A stretch of DNA of 46,033 bases, taken from Marinifilum sp. D737 (lineage in GTDB: Bacteria; Bacteroidota; Bacteroidia; Bacteroidales; Marinifilaceae). Location: the NCBI RefSeq assembly GCF_026672275.1, contig NZ_JANQCD010000033.1, forward strand, positions 1 to 46,033, written 5' to 3'. Shown one piece after another: positions 8,335 to 26,602 of this stretch; positions within the stretch are counted from its first letter, which is position 1, and each line of letters begins with the position of its first letter. Under the pieces are notes generated by a model. The model was not told the DNA's origin, ran no database searches, and was given only the letters and a program-made list of their open reading frames with translations. Made by a program: the position numbers and the translations under genes.

Positions 8335-9942
8335 CTATCTTCTGCCGCGTCTTCCACGACCTCCTCCTTCAGATGAATTCTCATCGTCACCTTCCGAAAC
8401 TGTGTCATCACCATGTCCTTCTGGTCTATTTCCATGCGAATCTTCTTCCGGCACATAATTAAATGGTGAAAATTCGCCCCTAACAATAGGAACATCCCAA
8501 GTCCAGGTAGGTGTAGAAATTTCCCAAACCAAAAACTCTTCATTATTGTGCACTACCTCAAGCGCCTGAACATAATCATCTGCTTGACAAGCAAATCCAA
8601 GTGCACCGGTAGTAGGATTACCTTCCTTTTGTGTATACCTGTAAATTGCATTTGCATCAACAGTTAATGGTGCCTCTCCCATTAAGATATCATGCAAAAC
8701 TAAATTATCTGCAAGAACCTCTGTATGTGAGCCTATTAATTCTCCGCTTACAGGATCATAATCACCTACAATTGTTACATAATCCAAAAGAGTTCTTTTA
8801 AACTTTTCCCTGTCATAACTAAAACTTGAATAATCCACATAGTAACGATAGCGTGAATATTGTTCCTTATTTGTTTTATCCATCATTCGAATTTCCTGTT
8901 CGATTGTTGGTAAATAGCAATTTACAATATTAGCAGTTTGATTAATATCATTTCCACTCACTTCCGGCACTCCCATAAACAGATTAACAAATACGATCTC
9001 GTCGATATTCAGGGTATTCGACTTGTCTGATCCTGCTGCCATACAGGATGCAGCCAAATTCATGATCAATTGATTTTGCTGGTCTACAGAAAAATCAAGG
9101 AACGATTTTGGAAGAGGAGCCCATTCTCCATCTACCCTAAGTTGTAGATCAAAGCCACCAAAAGAAGATTCCTCTTCAATTAGAAATTTCAAGCCATTAT
9201 TTTCAGCCGATTGAGTAAATCCATGTAGCATGAGTTCCTTGTAAATGGCCAAATTCTCAAGGGGTGAATCGATTGGCTTATCTGCTTCTCCAAGTGCTAT
9301 GGCTGCATCAGTTCTAAACATCATCACACGGCCACAAAAATCACGAGATACATTAGCAACAGAACCATCGCCAAAATTCTTAATAACCTCTGCTAATCTT
9401 CTTTCAATAACAGTAGAAGGTGATCGAATAATATCTAAACGTCCAAACTCAATAGGTACTACATGAAGTGCCACTTCAGGTAAAATTTCCCCTTCAGCAT
9501 CATAGAGCGAAATTACATTTTCAGCACCTTCAACAAAGCCATTTTCATTAGGTATTATTGTAACGATCTCTGTAAGCGGATTGTCTTCTGACTCATAAAT
9601 TACGTATCCATCAGCGTCACGTACCAATACTTCTAAGTCAAATTCTCCGTTAAGCCGTGGGTTTACAACATCAATGACTCCAACAACAGGCAGATCTTTA
9701 TATTCTACATGATAATTTAATTCATAAAGGATTGGAACACCAGAATTGTAACGTTCCATTTCCCACAAATCGCCATACAAATCGGCTTGATCGACATCTG
9801 TTTGCTTTCCACCTCTTTTCAAGACATGGCTTTTTTGTTCCTGATTTCTATCAGGCTCTAAAAGCTCATTGTCACAAGCAGAGAAAAAAGCAAAACCAAT
9901 AATTAGCAAGCACACACATGGTGCAAATAAATTGTTTTTCAT
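8335..9942 (-). CDS. Large lipoprotein of unknown function with Gly/Arg tail
   Basis: A protein of 535 residues with a lipoprotein signal peptide (FFSACDN, Cys23), so it should be anchored in the outer or inner membrane. I do not recognise a domain. The body is acidic and mixed alpha/beta. The C-terminus from about residue 500 is low-complexity: an acidic Ser/Glu/Asp/Gly stretch followed by GGGRGRRGRR. The sudden basic end after an acidic linker is unusual for a lipoprotein. It is transcribed divergently from an atypical NarL-type regulator (10200-10886) with 257 bases between them, so that regulator may control it. Confidence 0.75.
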   Translation of the reverse strand: MKNNLFAPCVCLLIIGFAFFSACDNELLEPDRNQEQKSHVLKRGGKQTDVDQADLYGDLWEMERYNSGVPILYELNYHVEYKDLPVVGVIDVVNPRLNGEFDLEVLVRDADGYVIYESEDNPLTEIVTIIPNENGFVEGAENVISLYDAEGEILPEVALHVVPIEFGRLDIIRSPSTVIERRLAEVIKNFGDGSVANVSRDFCGRVMMFRTDAAIALGEADKPIDSPLENLAIYKELMLHGFTQSAENNGLKFLIEEESSFGGFDLQLRVDGEWAPLPKSFLDFSVDQQNQLIMNLAASCMAAGSDKSNTLNIDEIVFVNLFMGVPEVSGNDINQTANIVNCYLPTIEQEIRMMDKTNKEQYSRYRYYVDYSSFSYDREKFKRTLLDYVTIVGDYDPVSGELIGSHTEVLADNLVLHDILMGEAPLTVDANAIYRYTQKEGNPTTGALGFACQADDYVQALEVVHNNEEFLVWEISTPTWTWDVPIVRGEFSPFNYVPEEDSHGNRPEGHGDDTVSEGDDENSSEGGGRGRRGRR

Positions 9943-10199
9943 AACATTTGGTTTTAAAGTGAACTAAAATAGATTGATAAGTAAAATACTTTTTGAATAG
10001 AAAACTTGAAGTAAAAAGTTAAGCAAAGCTAAAAAAATGATCAATCCTCATTTCGTGTATTTTAAGTAACCATTTTACTCACTCACTATCAACGTAATGA
10101 TTAATCAATTAAGCAAAAAGAGCATTTTTTTTAAATTATCAGTAAAAAATTCTTAAAGTTTAATTTAAACATCGTAACTTTAATAAACAATATAAAATA

Positions 10200-10886
10200 A
10201 TGCAGCAAGTTAAGACCATAAAAATATTGATATCCTATGACCAATGTATGGTAGCGGAAGGTTTTGAGTCAGTATTATCAAGCCATAAACGATTCCAGGT
10301 TTCGTTGATAAGAAAAAATAAGGATATGTATTACGATACCATAAGATCTGGTGAAGTAGATTTGCTAATTGTGGAAATTGAAGACGTATCGAGAGATAGT
10401 CTTAATTTCATAACTAAACTGCATCATGACTACCCTATGTTAAAAATATTAGTAATTTCAGGGATTCCTCCTCTTGAATTACTTAAGCCCCTTGTCAATG
10501 TTATTAATGGATATTTACTTAGATCTTGCTCGTCGGAAAAATTATTTTTAGCAATTCAGGAAATTTTTGAATCGGGGAAATATATCTGCTCAAAATTAAT
10601 TCCCATACTTTTCAATGACAATAAAAAAGATAATTTCAACATCCATTTAACATCTAGAGAAAAGGAAATTTTATTCTTGCAGTTCACATTAAAAGACAAT
10701 AATGAAATTGCCAAAAGACTTCATATTAGTCAAAATACAGTAAGAACACACATAAAAAATATAAGGCATAAATTTGGTGATTTTAACCAAATTCAAATGA
10801 TGAGATACACTTGCAATAAAACTTTGCACAAAGATCACTGTCTTCCTCTTTGCCCAAACTGCAAATTTTTTGCTAATGGAAGCTAA
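10200..10886 (+). CDS. Atypical NarL/LuxR-type response regulator
   Basis: A protein of 228 residues with an N-terminal receiver-like domain (1-125) and a LuxR helix-turn-helix (about 149-193, LTSREKEILFLQ and EIAKRLHISQNTVRTHIKNI). The usual phospho-acceptor aspartate is replaced: DLLIVEIEDV has Glu59 where NarL-type proteins have Asp. The acidic pair is reduced to YDQ, and the conserved Lys position reads LLRSC. It may therefore work without phosphorylation, or Glu may mimic the phosphorylated state. The tail after the HTH has four cysteines (205, 214, 218, 221; HCLPLCPNC), which could bind a metal. No histidine kinase is adjacent. It is divergent from the large lipoprotein gene. Confidence 0.85.
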   Translation: MQQVKTIKILISYDQCMVAEGFESVLSSHKRFQVSLIRKNKDMYYDTIRSGEVDLLIVEIEDVSRDSLNFITKLHHDYPMLKILVISGIPPLELLKPLVNVINGYLLRSCSSEKLFLAIQEIFESGKYICSKLIPILFNDNKKDNFNIHLTSREKEILFLQFTLKDNNEIAKRLHISQNTVRTHIKNIRHKFGDFNQIQMMRYTCNKTLHKDHCLPLCPNCKFFANGS

Positions 10887-11021
10887 TACAAGTAATTCCA
10901 AATAGTAAAATAAAAGAATAAAACTCAATTAACTACTTCACAAACCGGAACTAGATTACTTTTGCTACAGTATCATTAATTGCAAGTATATTCAAATGAG
11001 ATAAAACATTAGATACTACAA

Positions 11022-15594: not shown

Positions 15595-15852
15595 ATGTCA
15601 GAATTAAAAAAGGCTGTTAAGGAACTGATGCAAGACCTCAACAGTAACGAAGTAGCTATCATTGAAAAAAGTGATTTTGATAGTTCATCCGCGAAGCTTC
15701 TATCCTATGGGAAGGTTGAATTAGGTGGTGATGCCGTACAGGTATTATCGAAAGAAAATCAACAATTCACACAATTACACAACGAATTATTGATCTGTTC
15801 AAGTAAAAACCGCAAAGCAGTTTGGGATTTTATTAGCAGATCGCTCCTGTAA
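15595..15852 (+). CDS. Small protein, paralogue of the next gene
   Basis: A protein of 85 residues that I do not recognise. It has a helical N-terminus (MSELKKAVKELMQDLNS), a strand-rich centre with LLSYGKVELGGDAVQVL (about 35-51), and a helical C-terminus (NRKAVWDFISRSLL). There is no signal peptide or membrane segment. The central ELxGDAV element and the spacing to the C-terminal helix recur in the next protein (AYTRFELDGDAVNFV), so the two are paralogues. It is the first gene of a four-gene operon (spacings 25, 21 and 3 bases), with a candidate promoter at 15456-15486. It may be a partner or immunity-like subunit of the 551-residue protein at the end of the operon. That is inference. Confidence 0.75.
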   Translation: MSELKKAVKELMQDLNSNEVAIIEKSDFDSSSAKLLSYGKVELGGDAVQVLSKENQQFTQLHNELLICSSKNRKAVWDFISRSLL

Positions 15853-15877
15853 TATTACTAATTAAACACAAACTATT

Positions 15878-16210
15878 ATGAGTATTAATGTAGAGCCTAT
15901 TAAAAAGGCAATTAATGATGTCGCAACTCTTGAAGTAGCAACTTTAACCAATGCGAATGACAATAAATTTGATCTTACCAATGGATCAAATGAAAGTGTA
16001 TTTGAAGCCATTCGAAGCAATCTTTCTCAATCGGATCTGGTAGCCTACACGCGCTTTGAACTGGATGGAGATGCAGTAAACTTTGTAAATAACAAGGAGG
16101 AACTTACCGCTTTGGTAGAGGATCATAGTATCCTGGTTGAATCTGCCCTGGAAACTCGCAAAACTCTTTTCAATACCATTTACAAAACGCTGAAAGATGT
16201 GATTAAATAA
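15878..16210 (+). CDS. Small protein, paralogue of the preceding gene
   Basis: A protein of 110 residues, unrecognised. It shares with the preceding 85-residue protein the helical start (EPIKKAINDVATLEVATL), the core YTRFELDGDAVNFV (about 57-70) and an amphipathic C-terminal helix (TRKTLFNTIYKTLKDVIK). An insertion of about 20 residues (DLTNGSNESVFEAIRSNLSQ) lies before the core. It is acidic overall, has no signal peptide, and is probably cytoplasmic or exported by a specialised route. Position between two other small genes suggests a multi-subunit assembly. No known family can be named from the sequence alone. Confidence 0.75.
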   Translation: MSINVEPIKKAINDVATLEVATLTNANDNKFDLTNGSNESVFEAIRSNLSQSDLVAYTRFELDGDAVNFVNNKEELTALVEDHSILVESALETRKTLFNTIYKTLKDVIK

Positions 16211-16231
16211 CAAGCTTTATCACCTGAAACT

Positions 16232-16474
16232 GTGAAACAAAAAATCAAGTATATTTTCTGTACCCTTAAGATTAACCTTAAGGAGAATTCCTTTCAAGCT
16301 TCAAGCATTTGGAATGAACTAAAGGCACAAAATGCACAGGAAATTAATCCTTACCTAGAAGCTAATGAAGATCAAGCTCCTGTAGTGTCAGAGTATGGAA
16401 AATATACTATTGGTATTCAAAAACAATTTGTGAATTTTCTACAATTCATGAGAAAGAAGCTGAATAAATCCTAG
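16232..16474 (+). CDS. Small protein with GTG start
   Basis: An unrecognised protein of 80 residues. The only sensible start is GTG at 16232: the frame is closed by a stop at 16208 upstream, and no in-frame ATG occurs until near the C-terminus. It has a basic N-terminus (MKQKIKYIFCTLKINLKEN), an acidic middle and a basic end (FLQFMRKKLNKS). The segment VVSEYGKYTIG (about 50-60) faintly resembles LSYGKVELGG of the first small protein, so it may be a distant third paralogue. It ends three bases before the 551-residue gene, strongly suggesting translational coupling. Confidence 0.65.
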   Translation: MKQKIKYIFCTLKINLKENSFQASSIWNELKAQNAQEINPYLEANEDQAPVVSEYGKYTIGIQKQFVNFLQFMRKKLNKS

Positions 16475-16477
16475 ATC

Positions 16478-18133
16478 ATGTCGATACAAGAAATTTTTAA
16501 GAGTGAGTTTTTGAAACCCGAAACAGAGGTAAACTTTACTGCCATTCATAAACTGGAGTGTGAGGAAGTTCTGGATAATTTGGGTTATATTGAACTTGAT
16601 CGCAACAGTGGTAAACAAACTGCCAGCTTTGAGCAATTAGAGGAAGGCATTTCTTTATTCAGGCAAGAATATGAAATGTACAAGCAGGATTTTCATAAAG
16701 ATATTGATCGCTTTGGCACATTTAAAGGCCAATTACTTTCTGAAGAGGAACTTGACTTTCTGCATGAATTATCCTCTTTAGAGGGCGAATTTGAACTTCA
16801 TCATTACCCTCTTAAAAAAATTGGACAAAATCCTATCCTATCCAGAGTTCTTAACTGGCGATTAGGTATTCTTTCCATATTCAATAATAGTATTACCAAT
16901 CAATTATCAGATGATCTCACAAATCATCTTAACCTGTTAGGATCATGGTGTAAAATTTCTGATCATGAGCAAATTATTGAGTTATTGGGTAATATGGAAA
17001 ATCTTTCCATGGCAATTGCAAAACAAGATTTCTACCCTGGTTCTGACTATCGACACCTTATCTATTTTAAAAACTCTTACAGAAAGTTAAAAGATAAAGG
17101 TGTTAAGTTTACAAGCAATAAAAAAAGATTCGAATCCAGATTACCATTTATTCCCAAGAAAAGCCAAAATACTTTAAAGCTGGTTCAAAAAAAGAAAGTT
17201 GCATTTGATAGCTTTCAAAAGGATCAATTGCATCAGCTTATGATTCGTTTGGTACAAATTAGACTGTGGCTATTGGGCAATTATCAAGGCAAGTTGGATA
17301 ATGATCTTGGTCCTTTAAGCATTACCGGCATTCATTCTCTTATTTCCTATATACATGAAAGCTATGGAGGAAAGCAAGGGTATAAAATGAGTGATTTGCT
17401 AATGCGTTTAGGAAACGACAGATGGGTTTTAAATGTTAGCTACCTCTTTAAGGCATTGCTTCCTGTACTTGTTAGGATGGAAAGTGATAAGAAAATGGAA
17501 ACCATATCCGAAGAATTTAGCACCATTATTAACAAGCTGGAAAAAGAAGAAGATAAAAAAGAGGTATTAAAAGTGATTGATCAGCAAATAAAGACTGAAT
17601 TTGATTCTCCTTCGAATCGAAAATCCAAAACAAGAGGGGGCAAAAGATTACTTCGCTCGATTGGTCGATTTTTCAAACGCATTGGTGACTTTATAAAAGA
17701 TGGCATTAAATGGGTTATCGAATCGATAAAAAACCTGTTTAAATGGTTTAAAAATGGAATTAAGATCTTAGTTCGTGAGTTAAAAAAGGCATTTCATATG
17801 GCCAAAACAGCCTTGTCATTTTTCTTTTCAAAAAGGATTGTAAAAACCCAAAACACCAACAGTCAACTAATCACCGATTACGATTTTAATTTCGACAGTT
17901 TAACTACAGTTATTGGAACAGACAAGGAATTAATTGAGGAACACATCCGCAAAAACAGGTGGATGAGCAATGCACTTGAAGAAGTATCTGAATTTTTAGG
18001 TACGCTTATTTCCATTGCCATTAAAATTGCCAAAGGACCTATGGGTTGGATTCAGCTTGGTATAGAAGTCATAAAATATCTGGTTGACAACAAATTTAAA
18101 TACAATAGGTTATCACTTGATTTGGATCATTAG
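16478..18133 (+). CDS. Protein with two PG-binding-like segments and cationic amphipathic helices
   Basis: A protein of 551 residues with no signal peptide and no clean family match. Residues about 23-66 (LECEEVLDNLGYIEL, then EEGISLFRQEY) and about 251-291 (LMIRLVQIRLWLLGNYQGKL, DNDLGPLSITGIHSLISYI) each follow the pattern of PG_binding_1 modules. That pattern is a helix, LGYYxGxxD, GPxT, then a helix. Residues about 385-450 form a long Lys/Arg-rich amphipathic stretch (KRLLRSIGRFFKRIGDFIKD, then WVIESIKNLFKWFKNGIKIL). A hydrophobic segment follows near 505-535 (LGTLISIAIKIAKGPMGWIQ). Such a layout could let it bind cell wall and insert into membrane, like an effector or pore former. It could equally be a structural membrane-associated protein. 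The three small upstream genes are likely partners. Confidence 0.7.
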   Translation: MSIQEIFKSEFLKPETEVNFTAIHKLECEEVLDNLGYIELDRNSGKQTASFEQLEEGISLFRQEYEMYKQDFHKDIDRFGTFKGQLLSEEELDFLHELSSLEGEFELHHYPLKKIGQNPILSRVLNWRLGILSIFNNSITNQLSDDLTNHLNLLGSWCKISDHEQIIELLGNMENLSMAIAKQDFYPGSDYRHLIYFKNSYRKLKDKGVKFTSNKKRFESRLPFIPKKSQNTLKLVQKKKVAFDSFQKDQLHQLMIRLVQIRLWLLGNYQGKLDNDLGPLSITGIHSLISYIHESYGGKQGYKMSDLLMRLGNDRWVLNVSYLFKALLPVLVRMESDKKMETISEEFSTIINKLEKEEDKKEVLKVIDQQIKTEFDSPSNRKSKTRGGKRLLRSIGRFFKRIGDFIKDGIKWVIESIKNLFKWFKNGIKILVRELKKAFHMAKTALSFFFSKRIVKTQNTNSQLITDYDFNFDSLTTVIGTDKELIEEHIRKNRWMSNALEEVSEFLGTLISIAIKIAKGPMGWIQLGIEVIKYLVDNKFKYNRLSLDLDH

Positions 18134-19155: not shown

Positions 19156-20433
19156 CTAATTCTGCATACTGAAGAAGATCTCAGGATCGGAATTGCTAAC
19201 AATGGCACAAGTACCACCATACTCTTTCACAACAAGTGGTACAACAGTCCAACCATTAGCATCGAAAAGTATGTCATACAAAGCTTTCCCCCCTTCATTG
19301 GCCATAAAGTCAGCTTCTTCATAGTCCCAACTATCAAAGCCACCATCGTGCATAATCAACTGGTCCTCATCGAATTTTTCGAATTTGGCAATATCAAAAC
19401 CTACCGAAGTCCAATCATCAAAATATAGTGTAACATCATTCCAAAAATCATAGTATGCAGAAACATAGAAGTAGTTAATCTCTCCTTCTCCCAAGTCATT
19501 TAATGCAGAAATTTTTTCCAGAAGCTTCGGACTCAAGTATTCATAAGAATCCCATCCCATATCATAGTACATCTTGGCTGCACCTTTAAACTTACATGGA
19601 GCCTCTGCTTCAAAAACAACCTCACCATCAATTCCTTCATTGCTTACAAGAAACTTCTTGTTTTCTGCATCGTAAGCAAAACTTGTTACTTTTTTACCAT
19701 CAATTACCAAAGGTTCATGTAAATCAAACCCTACAGGTGTAAAGTGAACGCCCATATTTATTACTTCATACTTTCCTTGATCATTAGTAAAAGAAAAATT
19801 CAGACGACGCATATCTTCAAAATAGGAAAGCATAAACTTTTGATCACTTCCTTCAACTACCAGATTTCTATAAAAAGGATGAATTCCCTCCTCTTTTATT
19901 AACTTGGCCTCCATATCTTTCAATTTGTTGATATTAGTCCAATCTGCCTGCGTTGCCCTAACAAGTACCATCGTGCTCTCATTGGTTTTTCCCTCAAGGT
20001 AAATGGTATCTTGGTTTTCGGAAACTCTTTCAAAATAGAGTTCATAGTCTCCTCCCATTCCAACACCTTGTTCTCCAATTTCCGGGTCGGTCATTTTGGA
20101 AAAATTGCTATACGTATCAAAAGCCAGTTGTGGTCTCTCAATTGAACTCAATTTGTAAAGCGAAGTTTCTACAGTTTCATTAATATCCCAAGCCACTTTA
20201 ACCGTTCCATCCTCATTAAAATCAAACAGAAAAGTGAATCCGCCCAATATTTCGGCATTGGGGTAGTAATTGGTTATCCATCCGTTTTCGGCCGAAAGCA
20301 ACAAGTCTTGATATCCATTTACAGCTTCACCTATTCTAGTATCTGCATCCAGATCAAAAATTCGATCTTCCTCGTTATCACAGGAACTGAACAGTAGTGC
20401 AAATCCTGTAAGTATATATAATAATTTCTTCAT
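19156..20433 (-). CDS. DUF4302-like lipoprotein of SusCD locus
   Basis: The ATG at 20433 gives a proper lipoprotein signal, MKKLLYILTGFALLFSSCDN (Cys18), and a protein of 425 residues. The frame continues upstream to 20490, but that part overlaps a leader hairpin and precedes the signal. The region DADTRIGEAVNGYQDLLLSA then NGWITNYYP and GGFTFLFDFNEDGTVKVAWD is characteristic of DUF4302 lipoproteins. These usually sit next to a SusC/SusD pair and an HExxH lipoprotein, as here. Members are thought to be surface-exposed accessory proteins of import systems; the ligand is not known. Confidence 0.8.
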   Translation of the reverse strand: MKKLLYILTGFALLFSSCDNEEDRIFDLDADTRIGEAVNGYQDLLLSAENGWITNYYPNAEILGGFTFLFDFNEDGTVKVAWDINETVETSLYKLSSIERPQLAFDTYSNFSKMTDPEIGEQGVGMGGDYELYFERVSENQDTIYLEGKTNESTMVLVRATQADWTNINKLKDMEAKLIKEEGIHPFYRNLVVEGSDQKFMLSYFEDMRRLNFSFTNDQGKYEVINMGVHFTPVGFDLHEPLVIDGKKVTSFAYDAENKKFLVSNEGIDGEVVFEAEAPCKFKGAAKMYYDMGWDSYEYLSPKLLEKISALNDLGEGEINYFYVSAYYDFWNDVTLYFDDWTSVGFDIAKFEKFDEDQLIMHDGGFDSWDYEEADFMANEGGKALYDILFDANGWTVVPLVVKEYGGTCAIVSNSDPEIFFSMQN

Positions 20434-20450
20434 AATTTTATTTTTTCTAT

Positions 20451-20480
20451 CTGCAATCCCAATGGGTATCAGGATTGCAG
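20451..20480 (-). promoter_or_regulatory. Leader hairpin before the DUF4302-like gene
   Basis: CTGCAATCC (20451-20459) and GGATTGCAG (20472-20480) form a perfect 9-base stem with a 12-base loop. It lies 18 bases upstream of the preferred start at 20433 and downstream of the metallopeptidase gene. No T-run follows on the minus strand, so it is more likely an mRNA processing or stability element than a terminator. Confidence 0.5.
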
Positions 20481-20511
20481 AAGATTTCAATTCATACCGT
20501 TTTTCTAAGGC

Positions 20512-21396
20512 TTATTTATTGGCCAGGTTCACTGTAACTTCATGAATATGGGCCTGCAATTCATAAAGATCAATATTCCAAACCTGAAGAAAGTAATTCA
20601 CTACCATTTCCTCTTTCTGTCTGATTTTAGCTATTCCTTCCTCTTTTTGTTTTAATAGTAGTTCATAATCAGGATCCCAGCTTGATACATATGCACTCTC
20701 CACATACTTATTCCACTCTTCACGACTCTTGGTCAACATTTTGGCAATCATTTCTACAAAATCATCATTTGGATTGTTCATGGAATAGGCCGTAATAAAT
20801 CCCATTACAAGAGCATCTGATTTGCCATAGTTCATCCATGCTGTGGTATATCCCGGAGTGATCTTTTCATACTCTAATGGATACATCACATTCTGATGTA
20901 AAATGTGTCCAAACTCATGTTGCATGGTAGAAAAGATTCGGTCCATAATTGTTTTATTGGCTGGGTCAAAATAGTTGATGTCAAATATGGTCACCTTTCT
21001 GCCATTTTCGGCTTGTCCCAAAATAATGGAACCGTTTTTATTATAATTATGACTTCCCACAAGTACAAGTAGCTTAGGAACCATCATCTTCACAAAATCT
21101 TCCCCACCATACTCAGCGTAAGGATCAATCCAAACGGTCTTCATGGCTTCCAAAAATGGACGAACCTTTTCCAGTTTTGCAGGAGTCAACACTTTACCGT
21201 TATCTACTTCGGCATCATCAAAACGGTATTTTACCTCAATATTATAAGGGATAGTAAAATTCTCACGAATCCACTGATCGGTTTCATTTAGTTCAGGGGT
21301 GGAAGTGTCAATTAACGACTCTCCCAAATCTTCATCATTACTACAAGAGCCAAATAAAAAGACTCCCAACATTAAAAAGCATATATATTTTTTCAT
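20512..21396 (-). CDS. Zinc metallohydrolase lipoprotein (SusCD-associated, HExxH)
   Basis: The second ATG (21396) gives the lipoprotein signal MKKYICFLMLGVFLFGSCSN (Cys18) and 294 residues. The motif STMQHEFGHILHQ supplies HExxH (about 160-164) with a further conserved His, typical of zinc metallopeptidases. Length, lipobox and place directly after SusD fit the substrate import-associated zinc metallohydrolase lipoprotein group (putative zinc-binding peptidase family Mx1). It probably sits on the cell surface and trims a peptide-containing ligand for the SusC/D pair. The DUF4302-like gene follows after 78 bases. Confidence 0.88.
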   Translation of the reverse strand: MKKYICFLMLGVFLFGSCSNDEDLGESLIDTSTPELNETDQWIRENFTIPYNIEVKYRFDDAEVDNGKVLTPAKLEKVRPFLEAMKTVWIDPYAEYGGEDFVKMMVPKLLVLVGSHNYNKNGSIILGQAENGRKVTIFDINYFDPANKTIMDRIFSTMQHEFGHILHQNVMYPLEYEKITPGYTTAWMNYGKSDALVMGFITAYSMNNPNDDFVEMIAKMLTKSREEWNKYVESAYVSSWDPDYELLLKQKEEGIAKIRQKEEMVVNYFLQVWNIDLYELQAHIHEVTVNLANK

Positions 21397-21414
21397 AACA
21401 ATCATTTTACAAGA

Positions 21415-22926
21415 TTAACGTGGATTAGCGGGTAAACCATTGGCAATAGCTTGTCGTGGCAGCTGAATTACTCTTCTAAGGTCATTTTTAGTTAAAACCA
21501 TTTCAGATCCTTCGTACATGTGAACCACTTCCATATTAAATCGGCGGATATCGAACCATCTAAGTCCTTCGTGAATAAATTCACGTTTACGTAAATCCAA
21601 AATAAAACGGATTACATTAACCTTATCACCTTCAATCGGATAGAATGCTTCAGCATTGTAGGTCTCTTCATAATAAGGAAGATCAGTGTCTGTATAAATG
21701 TTATTAATATAATCTACAGTAATATCAGGCGCTGCTCCATTTCCTGTTCTTTTGGTATGAAACGATTTCAAATCTTCAAACGCCTTCCCAAAATCATTAT
21801 TCATTGCATAAGCTTCAGCACGATTCAACAGCACCTCTTCTGCCACAAACAAAGGACACATCATCATTGGGTAACCGATATTGGCATTTACACCTCCTGC
21901 TTTTTTGAAATACTCATCAAATTTTGGAATGTGATGGTTGGAATCATAACCTGCATCAGATGGTCTGTAGGCAAATCCAAATGGGTCGGTACCCCAAGTC
22001 CCTGGAAACAATTTATCCTTTATCTCTGAAACAAGGCTGAAACGCCAGATATAATATCCACGAGCCCACACGGTATTTGAACTACATAACAACAAATTGG
22101 CTTTTTCGGTAGAACTCACCATTTTGGCCATAATTTCCCCACGTGACATAGTCTGGTACGTACCATTCCAATCTCTTAGCATAAGAGCCGGATCTCCAGT
22201 CAACACCTTATCGGCATGCTCAATTACTTTTTCCCACTCACCCTTATATAGATAAAATCGGGACGCAAATGCATTGGCTGCATCCTTTGTAAAATGGTAG
22301 GCTGCAACAGAGTAGGCATCATCTCTAATCAGAGTTAAGCCTTCCACCAAGTCTCTTTCTATTTTTTCATATACTTGTTGAACCGTACCTCTTTCATAGT
22401 CAGCAAAAACAACCGTTTCCGGCTCCTCAATATAAGGTATTCCCATATCGGAAGATGCTGTAGTAGGATTGTAATGCTTAGAAAATAAATTTACCAGCAT
22501 AAAATGTGAATAGGCTCTACAAATTAGAGCTTCTCCTTTTTGAGCTGTGTAATCCTCGGGATTTCCTACTTTGGAAATAGCATCCAAGGCTTGGTTAGCA
22601 TGCGCAATTGCCTCATAACAATTGGCCCAATAGTAGGTTGGTGTATCCTGATCTTCGGTGGTGTGGTCATTCCAAAGATAAGCGTCTCGGTTTTCAGGAA
22701 CATCATAAACGTAGGGACCTTCAACTTTATCTCCTACCAAATCAGACATTGTTTCTGTAAACTGATGATAGATTGCATTGGGATAAGCCGAAACCAGCAA
22801 TTCTGTAACCGCTTCTGGAGAATCCAGAGTTGTACGGTTATCTGGCAACTTATCCAGATAGTCGTTACAACCAGACAAGGAAAACAAAAGTCCGGCTGCT
22901 AATAAATATATTTTATTTTTTTTCAT
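21415..22926 (-). CDS. SusD/RagB-family surface lipoprotein
   Basis: A protein of 503 residues with a lipoprotein signal (LLFSLSGCNDYLDKLPDNR, Cys20). It shows the family's N-terminal helical signature (DSPEAVTELLVSAYP), the TPR-type centre (AEALICRAYSHFMLVNLF) and the conserved C-terminal DLRKREFIHEGLRWFDIRRF. SusD proteins form a lid on their SusC partner and bind the ligand at the surface. It starts 13 bases after SusC and is followed closely by an HExxH lipoprotein, so the imported ligand is more likely peptide-like or metal-bound than a polysaccharide. That reading comes from context. Confidence 0.95.
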   Translation of the reverse strand: MKKNKIYLLAAGLLFSLSGCNDYLDKLPDNRTTLDSPEAVTELLVSAYPNAIYHQFTETMSDLVGDKVEGPYVYDVPENRDAYLWNDHTTEDQDTPTYYWANCYEAIAHANQALDAISKVGNPEDYTAQKGEALICRAYSHFMLVNLFSKHYNPTTASSDMGIPYIEEPETVVFADYERGTVQQVYEKIERDLVEGLTLIRDDAYSVAAYHFTKDAANAFASRFYLYKGEWEKVIEHADKVLTGDPALMLRDWNGTYQTMSRGEIMAKMVSSTEKANLLLCSSNTVWARGYYIWRFSLVSEIKDKLFPGTWGTDPFGFAYRPSDAGYDSNHHIPKFDEYFKKAGGVNANIGYPMMMCPLFVAEEVLLNRAEAYAMNNDFGKAFEDLKSFHTKRTGNGAAPDITVDYINNIYTDTDLPYYEETYNAEAFYPIEGDKVNVIRFILDLRKREFIHEGLRWFDIRRFNMEVVHMYEGSEMVLTKNDLRRVIQLPRQAIANGLPANPR

Positions 22927-22939
22927 GATTGATCGATTT

Positions 22940-25900
22940 TTAGATTCCTAACTTCAATGTAAATGTGTACTGCTTTGGTACAGGCATAGCAACACCCCCT
23001 GCCCCAAAGAACTCAGGATCCTGACCATTCAATTTTTTATCCGAATAGATCAAAAACAGATTTGTAGCCTGCAACTTTAACTGCATGGAATTCAAATTCA
23101 TACTACTCAAAATGCTTTTAGGCAGATTATAGGCTAAAGACACTTCTTTCATTCTAACAAAAGAGCCGTCTGCAACACGGAAAGTTGAGTGATTGTACGC
23201 ATTGTAAGTACTAATATACTTTCCATCGTAATCTCTTTGAGAAAGAATTACAGGGATATTTGTTTTATCCTCATCTCCTGGTAAAGCCCAGCGGTCGAAG
23301 AATTCCTTAGGCATGGCATCCAAATCAGAATAACGTGCTTTGAAAGAAGGATTCAAACGAATCTTGTTTCCAAACTGATAACTCATGTGCACATTTAATC
23401 TCCAATTCTTGTATTTAAACAAGTTGGTAAAACCACCGGCTACCTTTGGATCAATAGGGCCTTCATATTTTAGGTAATCAATATTTTCTGACTGGAAATT
23501 AATATCTGAAGCAGTTATCTCTCCATCTTCATTATAAAATGTAGGAATACCCTCCTGATTCAAACTAGCAAACGGAATAGAAAATAATCCTCTAACCGGA
23601 TAACCTTCCAATGCTCCTCCAATACCTCTTACAAGGTCGTAAACAGTTGGTGAAGATTTTAAATTGGTAATCTCATTCTTCATGATAGAGAAATTCAGGT
23701 TTGTATCCCAATTGAAATCCTTGGATTTGATATTCTTAGTAGACAACATGAATTCAAAACCTTTTGATTCCATGTCAGCATAATTGGCATATTTCCAATA
23801 CTGGCCACCAATACCTGAAGTACGAACAGCACTAATCAAATCAAAACCTTTTCTTTGATAGGCATCAAATTCCATATTGATACGATTCCCAAATAATCCT
23901 AAATCCAAACCAATGTTGGTTTCATATTGCTTTTCCCAGGTCAATTCAGCATTTTCCAACTCATCAATATACATTTGAGCTTCCTTTTCGGTAGTTAATG
24001 GACGATCAGCAATCTTACTCATTAAAATAAGAGATGAATTTCTGGCTGGTCCCATACTGGCAGTCAAACCATAAGTTCCACGAAGTGTCAAGTGTGAAAT
24101 CACTTTTGAATCTGCCAGAAAATCCTCTGCATGTGCATTCCACGAACCACTCACATTCCAGGTTGGTAACCATCGTGATTTACGCGATTTACCTAGCTGA
24201 TTAGATCCTTCGTAACGATAGGTCCCATTAACTGTATATTTTCCTTTATATGAATAACTCACTCTTGAGTAAAATGCCATCATTCTGTCAAAAAAGTCGC
24301 CCATTTCATAATAGGTAAATCCTCCCTGCAATTGTTGCTTAATGAAACGATAATCTACGAATGGAACTCCTCCTCTATCCCACTGGTAACCAATACCATT
24401 AAAATAACTATCGTTACGATCTGCATAACTCAATTCCTGCCCTATAAATACATCTACAATATGAGTTTCGTTATAAGTCTTGTTAAAAGAAATATTGTTA
24501 CGTAACGAGTAACTCAACATTGTATTATCTACTCTGTTGTAGAAACCACCACGTGGTAGTACTACTACAGGAAGAGCATCAGGATTGTCTAAATCAGTAT
24601 AAAGGAATTTATTGTATTTTGCCATCTCAGGATCATCGTCTGCACGATAAGCTCTGGCCATATTTGAATTCTCGGTAATTTTGTGCTCCTGTGTAGATTT
24701 TACATATCTAAGTGAACCTAGAAAGCTGTATTCAAAATTCTTATTGAATTTATATCCCAAATCTGCTTGTAGTTTCAAATCCAAGACATCAAACTCCAGG
24801 TAGTTATTTTTAACCTCTTCGATAATATTAAATGGTGCGTAGTTCATACGGAAATATTCCAATCCACCATTATCATTGTAAGGTCGCAATGCACGAGAAG
24901 TATTCAATGCATAAGAGAATGGGTTGATATCAAAATCTCTATCGTAAGATCCATCAATTGGATTCTCTACTCGTTTAAAAGTACCTGGGGCATTCTGCTG
25001 ACGAAAAGATGCTGTTGTACTTAAACCAATATTCAATTTATCTGTCAACTTTACATTAGCCTTGGCATTGGTCGTGTATCTTCTTACTTTATCGGCTATA
25101 GACCAACCATCATCATTATACAAACTGGTTGAGAAGTAGAAGTTCCCCTTATCGGTTCCTCCTGATAAACTTACCGAATGGTTTTGAATGATTGAGTTCT
25201 TGAATAATATATCGAACCAATCGGTATTTGCCATTTCATACTTTTGTAAGAATTTAGCACGTGCTTCAGGCGTATTTTGCAAGCCAAATCCTGTTTCCGG
25301 ATCATAAGAGTTGATTAAGTCATACATTTTTTTGTAAACTCCACCATTCTGTTGACGAGAAATATCGGCATGGTTCAACCATCCTTTTCTTTCTAATTCA
25401 CGATATGCAGACATTTGCTCTTTAGAGTTCATGATGTTGTAGTCTGAATAGGAAGGCTTCAATCTCATTGTAAATTCACCGGTATATGAAACACTTGTTT
25501 TACCAGCGGTTCCTTTTTTGGTAGTAATTACAATTACACCATTCATTGCTCTGGCACCATATAATGCAGTTGCCGAAGCATCTTTCAACACCTCAAAACT
25601 TTCAATATCATCAGCATTTAAGCCAGCAACAGCGGAACTTATCAAAGTAGAAGGATCACCGGAAGACAGCTCGTCCGCTGAAACATCCACAACATCTTCC
25701 AATACCATACCGTCAACCACCCAAAGCGGTTTTGAATTACCATAGATAGAAGAAGCACCACGAACACGGATTTTTGGGGCTGCACCAAATGAACCAGAAA
25801 CATTCTGAACAGTTACACCAGCAGCTTTACCTTCCAACATACGCCCTACGTCAACCATACCATTAACTTTAGCCTCTTCAGCTTTAACGGTAGTGGCCGA

Positions 25901-26602
25901 ACCTGTAAATAAACGTCGATCCGTTTTTCTAAAACCATCAGAAACCACCACAACTTCGCTTAATTGCTCAGAGTCCGTTTTCATGGTAATTTTCAAATTT
26001 GTTTGATTGCTTACCACTACCTCCTGAGATTGCATTCCAATAAAAGAAATTACCAATACTGGTTTTCCTGAAGTTGGAATTTCCAATGTAAATTCACCAT
26101 CGAAATTGGTAGATACACCTGTTGTTGTACCTTTTATTAAAACTGATACACCAGGTAGAGAAAGCCCCTGATCATCTACAACCACTCCAGAAATCTTTCT
26201 TGTCTTCTCTTGTTGAGCCTCGCCTGATGGCTGACTTTGTTGTACACTCTTGCGAAGTGTAATCGCTTCTTTCTTGAATTCATATTCAAGTTCACTGTCT
26301 TGTAAGCAATGTTTCAGTACAGATTTAACTGTTTCATCCTTTGCTTCAACGGATACATCTTTCACTCCCTCAACATCTTCCGAACTGTAAAGGAAGATCA
26401 GGCCTGTTTGTTCATGAATCTCCCACAATACCTGCTCCAGGTCTGCCCCATTCAAGTTAAGGGTAACTCTGGCATCTTGCGCTAAGGTATTTGCCGATAC
26501 GCTCATCACACTGGCCAATAAAAACAAGGCTAGCATCTTCATAAATAACAACATTTTAAACAACTTTCGGGGTCGAAAGCCGTCGTTCCAACATTTTTTC
26601 AT
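22940..26602 (-). CDS. SusC/RagA-type TonB-dependent transporter with STN domain
   Basis: A protein of 1220 residues. The signal peptide ends about VSANTLAQ (residue 42). It is followed by an STN domain (about 45-112, VTLNLNGADLEQVLWEIHEQ) used to contact the FecR anti-sigma factor. Next comes a CarboxypepD_reg domain (about 136-215, ISGVVVDDQGLSLPGVSVLI). Then the plug (RKTDRRLFTGSATTVK, VRGASSIYGNSKPLWVVDGM, ATALYGARAMNGVIVITTKK) and a large barrel ending TFTLKLGI. It forms the outer-membrane import complex with the following SusD gene. The STN domain plus adjacent sigma/FecR genes shows that import is self-regulated by ligand. The leader contains two hairpins with identical loops (26638-26689). 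Confidence 0.95.
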   Translation of the reverse strand: MKKCWNDGFRPRKLFKMLLFMKMLALFLLASVMSVSANTLAQDARVTLNLNGADLEQVLWEIHEQTGLIFLYSSEDVEGVKDVSVEAKDETVKSVLKHCLQDSELEYEFKKEAITLRKSVQQSQPSGEAQQEKTRKISGVVVDDQGLSLPGVSVLIKGTTTGVSTNFDGEFTLEIPTSGKPVLVISFIGMQSQEVVVSNQTNLKITMKTDSEQLSEVVVVSDGFRKTDRRLFTGSATTVKAEEAKVNGMVDVGRMLEGKAAGVTVQNVSGSFGAAPKIRVRGASSIYGNSKPLWVVDGMVLEDVVDVSADELSSGDPSTLISSAVAGLNADDIESFEVLKDASATALYGARAMNGVIVITTKKGTAGKTSVSYTGEFTMRLKPSYSDYNIMNSKEQMSAYRELERKGWLNHADISRQQNGGVYKKMYDLINSYDPETGFGLQNTPEARAKFLQKYEMANTDWFDILFKNSIIQNHSVSLSGGTDKGNFYFSTSLYNDDGWSIADKVRRYTTNAKANVKLTDKLNIGLSTTASFRQQNAPGTFKRVENPIDGSYDRDFDINPFSYALNTSRALRPYNDNGGLEYFRMNYAPFNIIEEVKNNYLEFDVLDLKLQADLGYKFNKNFEYSFLGSLRYVKSTQEHKITENSNMARAYRADDDPEMAKYNKFLYTDLDNPDALPVVVLPRGGFYNRVDNTMLSYSLRNNISFNKTYNETHIVDVFIGQELSYADRNDSYFNGIGYQWDRGGVPFVDYRFIKQQLQGGFTYYEMGDFFDRMMAFYSRVSYSYKGKYTVNGTYRYEGSNQLGKSRKSRWLPTWNVSGSWNAHAEDFLADSKVISHLTLRGTYGLTASMGPARNSSLILMSKIADRPLTTEKEAQMYIDELENAELTWEKQYETNIGLDLGLFGNRINMEFDAYQRKGFDLISAVRTSGIGGQYWKYANYADMESKGFEFMLSTKNIKSKDFNWDTNLNFSIMKNEITNLKSSPTVYDLVRGIGGALEGYPVRGLFSIPFASLNQEGIPTFYNEDGEITASDINFQSENIDYLKYEGPIDPKVAGGFTNLFKYKNWRLNVHMSYQFGNKIRLNPSFKARYSDLDAMPKEFFDRWALPGDEDKTNIPVILSQRDYDGKYISTYNAYNHSTFRVADGSFVRMKEVSLAYNLPKSILSSMNLNSMQLKLQATNLFLIYSDKKLNGQDPEFFGAGGVAMPVPKQYTFTLKLGI

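Follow-up and report, generated by a model that had tools for sequence, protein, structure and literature searches.

A conserved, uncatalogued two-protein core scattered over Bacteroidota lineages, with wall hydrolase genes beside it in part of its range

The window, a stretch of 46,033 nucleotides from Marinifilum sp. D737, contains an operon of four genes. Two of its products, a small protein (A, the second protein of the operon) and a large one (BIG), form a conserved, uncatalogued two-protein core that is scattered over Bacteroidota lineages, and in part of this range there is good evidence for a genomic tie of the pair to wall hydrolysis. As A and BIG are nearly always found together, and wall-cutting enzymes adjoin them in some distant relatives, the pair may be a home-grown envelope-opening device. 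Our tentative reading of the sequences is that the operon could be a chromosomal module working like a holin/peptidoglycan-hydrolase (endolysin) pair, which we consider possible rather than probable.

The operon is composed of four co-directional open reading frames, separated by gaps of 25, 21 and 3 nt (Table 1). This four-gene arrangement had been proposed in the initial annotation, and its coordinates, its strand and the 3-nt gap before the 551-residue protein were all confirmed. All six Marinifilum loci compared (the window and L002-L006) have the genes in one order and start the third with GTG. The gaps are equal in five of them, the exception being L005 (24, 16 and 1 nt), where a longer open frame is also possible for gene 3 and the GTG start was chosen. 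When the window was compared with L002-L006, dN/dS could be computed for 19 of 20 gene comparisons and ranged from 0.017 to 0.25 (0.11-0.25 for sp3), which indicates that all four are real genes; the one comparison without a value, gene 1 of L005, has saturated synonymous sites. The operon is kept under purifying selection in the six Marinifilum genomes. The BIG protein of the window shares 91-94% identity with those of three Marinifilum contigs, and 87% and 71% with those of two others. Among the five genomes of the genus that were searched, BIG is present in four (its own counted); the fifth genome, without BIG, is 80% complete. Downstream of the operon, at positions 19156-26602 of the minus strand, our reading of the sequence found a putative SusC/SusD-type set and a putative metallopeptidase lipoprotein; the SusC/SusD-type set is probably unrelated to the operon.

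Table 1. Genes of the Marinifilum operon and segments of BIG, in window coordinates
Feature	Position	Strand	Description
sp1	15595..15852	+	85 aa; short paralogue of A; core YGKVELGGDAV at 15706-15738
sp2 (A)	15878..16210	+	110 aa; small partner across Bacteroidota; core YTRFELDGDAV at 16046-16078
sp3	16232..16474	+	80 aa; GTG start; seen in Marinifilum only
BIG	16478..18133	+	551 aa; large partner; relatives in distant Bacteroidota
PG_binding_1-like repeat in BIG	17243..17335	+	residues about 256-286; supported at family level, position inferred from the family profile
Basic amphipathic helix of BIG	17630..17830	+	residues 385-451; 17 K+R, 4 D+E
Putative A-like core in the BIG C-terminus	17864..17944	+	residues 463-489, with D473 and H489; modest family-level evidence
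Moderately hydrophobic C-terminal segment of BIG	17990..18085	+	residues 505-536, with GPxGW motif, including W524

The pairing of A and BIG was followed over 20 loci, in which the window-type Marinifilum was counted once (window, L002, L003, L004 and L006) and L005 separately. The other 18 loci are G172, G238, G220, G425, G344, G476, G233, G007, G1235, G1229, G1210, G1196, G1178, G1232, G1176, G1254, G1168 and G982. In 19 of the 20, A is encoded upstream of BIG and on its strand, at a distance of no more than 117 nt in 15 of these 19. The result holds in both directions: 16 of the 17 loci found through BIG have A, and the three first found through A (G233, G007 and G982) all have BIG. The sole locus without A adjoining BIG is that of G1254 (L063:9524-11791). 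Between the two genes, sp3 is found in both Marinifilum types and a different small open reading frame in G1210. As for the possibility, raised by the initial annotation, that the small genes are not conserved with the large one, protein 2 is conserved with BIG in 19 of the 20 loci, whereas proteins 1 and 3 were seen conserved only within Marinifilum.

Carriers are few. The A profile matched 6 of the 295 genomes from the order (own genome counted), 3 of 395 of the class and 1 of 12 of one family, and the BIG profile 4 of 395 in a phylum sample (own counted), 2 of 244 in another class and 10 of 100 in one Saprospiraceae-type family, a label that is our guess from gene content; these samples overlap and include the genomes on which they were centred. 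The two BIG carriers among the 244 genomes of that other class were already known, the one A carrier in the family of 12 was G982 itself, and the BIG relatives among the 295 genomes were the own genome, G172, G238 and G220. One further candidate, G107 (L010, E 2.4e-4), was dropped from the counts, its match being confined to 64 residues inside a 213-residue protein of a different kind.

At curated cut-offs none of the four window proteins matches Pfam or NCBIfam, and PHROGs gave only weak matches. PADLOC gave no match for these four proteins or for six proteins of L014. The absence of a known family, as first proposed, is upheld within Pfam, NCBIfam and PADLOC. Weak matches to DpdI, ParB, SteA, tail tape measure, LPD37 and Gemin7 were rejected; wherever a curated cut-off exists they stay below it, and in the alignment scan LPD37 and Gemin7 each came up in just one of 19 members. 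The literature, covered by titles and the openings of abstracts, gave no mention of the A-BIG pair, which is no proof of absence for a pair that has no searchable name.

Regarding the small proteins, the initial annotation had seen a shared core in the first two, and their homology was borne out by phmmer at E 3e-4. With sp1 left out, a profile of A proteins still recovers it with a full-sequence E of 1.3e-6 (Z=1000), the best domain scoring 20.3 bits against 9.1 for the top of 880 shuffled decoys, and sp1 is homologous also to A proteins from other genomes. Five residues of A (D14, V20, D65, H83 and R94) do not vary among sp1 and 18 A proteins. The suggested distant relationship of the third protein found no support (profile E 13, hhalign E 0.38) and sp3 was rejected as a relative of A, whereas its GTG start stood. 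The AF2 model of A (pLDDT 66) predicts a helix-strand-(helix)-strand-strand-long helix fold, for which Foldseek returned nothing at E <=0.001; a sequence search of the PDB gave chance-level matches only.

The A core extends to larger clusters. The run is longer in G172, G238, G425 and G344, where two more proteins with this core follow, B of 113-142 aa and C of 233-321 aa. Profile searches reach B and C proteins at E values from 8e-6 to 4e-3, with one B at 0.06, and hhalign relates A to B (7e-8, probability 95), A to C (6e-4, probability 29) and B to C (7e-5, probability 63, over 21 columns). By these sequence comparisons A, sp1, B and C are homologous. The same four loci also encode D, a protein of 150-179 aa that was identified by its place in the run and whose hydrophobic stretches reach 1.0-1.7. 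D was also tried as a carrier of the core, and the result was not significant (hhalign C-D 0.005, probability 7; A-D 0.03).

BIG proteins are 504-854 aa long, apart from a 414-aa piece in G220, and R123, R128 and W524 are invariant in all 20. From the N- to the C-terminus they are composed of PG_binding_1-like repeats, a basic amphipathic helix, a possible A-like core and a hydrophobic segment. In G220 (L016:974-2430) the gene is split over two frames, with the N-terminal piece at 2242-2430, by sequencing error or decay; the longer piece alone was used in the counts. The PG_binding-like repeat is supported at family level only. There, the central repeat aligns with PG_binding_1 by hhalign (E 2.7e-4, probability 41), and our own PG_binding HMM matches it at E <=0.001 in 5 of 20 members, the best reversed decoy reaching 0.42. 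PF01471 matches 3 of 20 members at E <=0.01, the window protein not being among them, and among the PF01471 scores of four relatives one (L031, 23.6) exceeds the cut-off of 23 bits. In G233 and G007 a repeat closer to the N-terminus gives a match. The window protein alone does not match PF01471, so that the curated Pfam score is not reached, and gives an E of 0.87 with our HMM. Two PG_binding_1-like segments had been claimed for this protein: the central one stands at family level but is not seen in the window protein by itself, and the second, near residue 123, is weak (E 0.17).

The Lys/Arg-rich amphipathic stretch of the initial annotation proved real, and the largest helical moment of the window protein begins at residue 386. 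A predicted structure of low confidence (pLDDT 36) places a single helix at 387-450. The most basic run of 60 residues starts 135-183 residues from the C-terminus, within the amphipathic stretch, in 15 of the 20 BIG proteins. For an A-like core behind this helix the evidence is modest and holds at family level only, where hhalign of A against BIG C-termini suggests it (E 1.3e-4, probability 54). Searched singly, one of the 20 BIG proteins (G172, E 0.002) rises above the best of 880 decoys, and the window protein (E 44) does not. The proposed C-terminal hydrophobic helix is no more than moderate: the best 19-residue mean hydrophobicity of the tail is 1.21, at residue 500, against a maximum for the window protein of 1.36 at residue 316. 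In 16 of the 20 BIG proteins the peak hydrophobic 19 residues fall within the last 120, the window protein not being one of them. As first noted, no signal peptide is apparent: judged by hydrophobicity alone, the 19-residue maximum in the first 45 residues is at most 0.52 in all four window proteins.

An envelope hydrolase gene is adjacent to the pair in 7 of the 20 loci (L005, G172, G238, G344, G476, G233 and G007), and six of these enzymes are of wall type and one of lipase type. The run of G172 encodes a protein matching the endolysin model phrog_17001 (1.1e-79), with Pfam M15 and PG_binding_1 matches below cut-off. TIGR02594 hydrolases (CHAP-type) were identified in G238 and G344 (1e-32 and 2e-31), CHAP together with PG_binding_1 in G233 (2e-12 for CHAP), and a match to the endolysin model phrog_33083 in G007 (4e-16), the protein of G476 being matched solely through PG_binding_1 (6e-7). 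In L005, one of the six Marinifilum loci, a gene with a Tle1-like lipase domain (9690-10892; PF09994, 2.5e-56) starts 33 nt downstream of BIG and is perhaps a lipid-cutting counterpart to the wall hydrolases. None of the seven has a hydrophobic N-terminus (maximum 0.72). The 19 carrier genomes contain three copies of TIGR02594, two above cut-off and the G233 copy below, and every one is beside A-BIG, which is the strongest single point for the link; a crude distance estimate, made post hoc and assuming random placement, puts the chance of this at about 2e-8.

No adjacent envelope hydrolase was seen in the remaining 13 loci, the window included, in a count for which three contigs (G1210, G1196 and G220) end just behind BIG and leave that side unseen. 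Regarding peptidoglycan hydrolases, none lies beside the operon in the window, nor in L002-L004 and L006, and a TIGR02594 search of the window's genome found none. Two other neighbourhoods were recorded from the sequence. In G1229 (L057:10176-11396) a putative serine-hydrolase/beta-lactamase-like gene follows BIG after 117 nt, and was left out of the hydrolase count. In G007 (L032:6008-7960) a putative metallo-beta-lactamase/ComEC-like protein and a putative LytTR-type regulator adjoin A-BIG.

If the operon does work like a holin/endolysin pair, BIG would be made without a signal peptide and would attach to the inner membrane by two elements, the long basic amphipathic helix and the hydrophobic segment at the C-terminus; after a breach of the membrane, its PG_binding_1-like repeats would dock to the wall. 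The A proteins, which would have their core in common with the C-terminus of BIG, might co-assemble with it, either as subunits or to hold it in check. In those relatives that encode a signal-less hydrolase of endolysin type in the same run, this enzyme could cross the membrane at BIG and cut the wall, ending in lysis or in a local release of cargo; most Marinifilum would have to encode the hydrolase elsewhere. Of the wall- and membrane-active complex with small partners that was first suggested, the large wall- and membrane-like protein with its conserved partner is found, whereas the membrane activity, with membrane insertion, pore formation, co-assembly, hydrolase passage and lysis or release, is what we infer. 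The weakness of the BIG tail as a transmembrane helix in the window protein stands against a holin-like role, and the modest hhalign probabilities for the A-like core (54) and the PG_binding-like repeat (41) also count against the reading. Because the window has no hydrolase and the PHROGs holin models matched neither the window proteins nor those A, B, C, D and BIG proteins of relatives that were scanned, membership in a holin/endolysin family is not claimed.

Conservation of the neighbourhood bears on an alternative that we consider unlikely, namely that BIG and A form a non-lytic scaffold at the cytoplasmic membrane, one that tethers wall-remodelling enzymes as the cell grows, divides or meets envelope stress and in which the PG_binding-like repeats act as protein-protein modules. 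Beside the locus are a gene that we take from its sequence to be of NDH-2 type (L056, L057, L060 and L063) and one presumably of PepT type (L057, L060 and L063), and the related genomes L028 and L029 share their flanking genes. Such keeping of neighbours in several Saprospiraceae-type genomes is unlike the prediction for a suicide module and fits a maintenance role as well. The purifying selection on the operon agrees with the scaffold, as does the lack of a visible adjacent hydrolase in 9 of 10 Saprospiraceae-type loci. However, the rarity of the genes (BIG in 4 of the 395 genomes sampled from the phylum, A in 6 of the 295 from the order) speaks against a core function in growth, and the wall hydrolases beside the pair match models of phage endolysins and have no hydrophobic N-terminus.

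The same conserved chromosomal neighbours count against a two-part toxin with a brake, in which BIG would be membrane-active and A would restrain it like an antiholin or antitoxin, possibly in phage defence. A is small, encoded upstream and net negative in 14 of 19 loci, and the BIG helix is strongly basic and amphipathic, as this idea would have it. We nevertheless hold it to be improbable: PADLOC has no match for the four window proteins and six proteins of L014, neither plasmids (query, BIG of the window) nor phages (query, BIG of L029) gave one, and the paralogues B and C are ill-suited to a simple pair. Scans of viral contigs, which reach close relatives only, likewise found no relative of the window sp2, the window BIG or the A of L056.

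Delivery of BIG and the hydrolases into other bacteria as effectors of a contractile injection system, with A as chaperone or immunity protein, would suit the Tle1-like lipase gene of L005, the additional matches of two TIGR02594 proteins to the tail lysozyme phrog_1259 (1e-32 and 5e-33) and the sheath matches to PF04984 (E <=0.001) in 7 of 19 carrier genomes, but is unlikely, since six of those seven are weak and only one is above cut-off, the T6SS sheath VipB (PF05943) is found in 0 of 19 (the control set was positive in E. coli), with the reservation that divergent Bacteroidota tubes may escape both models, the window's genome has no PF04984 match, and no contractile genes were recognised by eye in the inspected flanks.

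Beyond the holin/endolysin-like reading, we offer as a speculation, doubtful in our own estimate, that the locus is a so far undescribed, non-phage envelope-breaching apparatus of Bacteroidota, in which one reusable module (A, sp1, B, C and the BIG tail) would co-assemble on a PG-binding amphipathic scaffold, with interchangeable wall- or lipid-cutting enzymes attached. What the loci provide is two linked families that could be assigned to none of the named ones in the curated libraries searched and that have a genomic link to enzymes of endolysin type. Should the holin/endolysin-like reading hold, they would represent a new bacterial route for signal-less hydrolases across the cell's own membrane, and a candidate means of programmed lysis or of protein release among Bacteroidota. 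We know of no holin-based system in this phylum.

In a comparison with known systems, the model of A (pLDDT 66) aligns with the YbaB/EbfC fold at low Z with an rmsd of 4.5-5.9, and Pfam YbaB matched none of 19 proteins. BIG resembles PG_binding_1 (PF01471) proteins through the family-level alignment of its central repeat, and differs from them in that the window protein has no match. From T10SS and phage holin-endolysin cassettes the loci differ in the size of BIG and its PG_binding-like repeats, in the absence of a holin model match, in having several paralogous soluble proteins, and in the 13 of 20 loci without a hydrolase. They are alike in that a signal-less endolysin-type protein is encoded in the same run as membrane-like proteins in 6 of 20 loci; the T10SS definition includes a cargo protein close by (PMC10109510). 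A review (PMC9527704) reports a natural holin-endolysin fusion and proposes for the small holin TpeE an action through an amphipathic helix, which the amphipathic helix of BIG would parallel.
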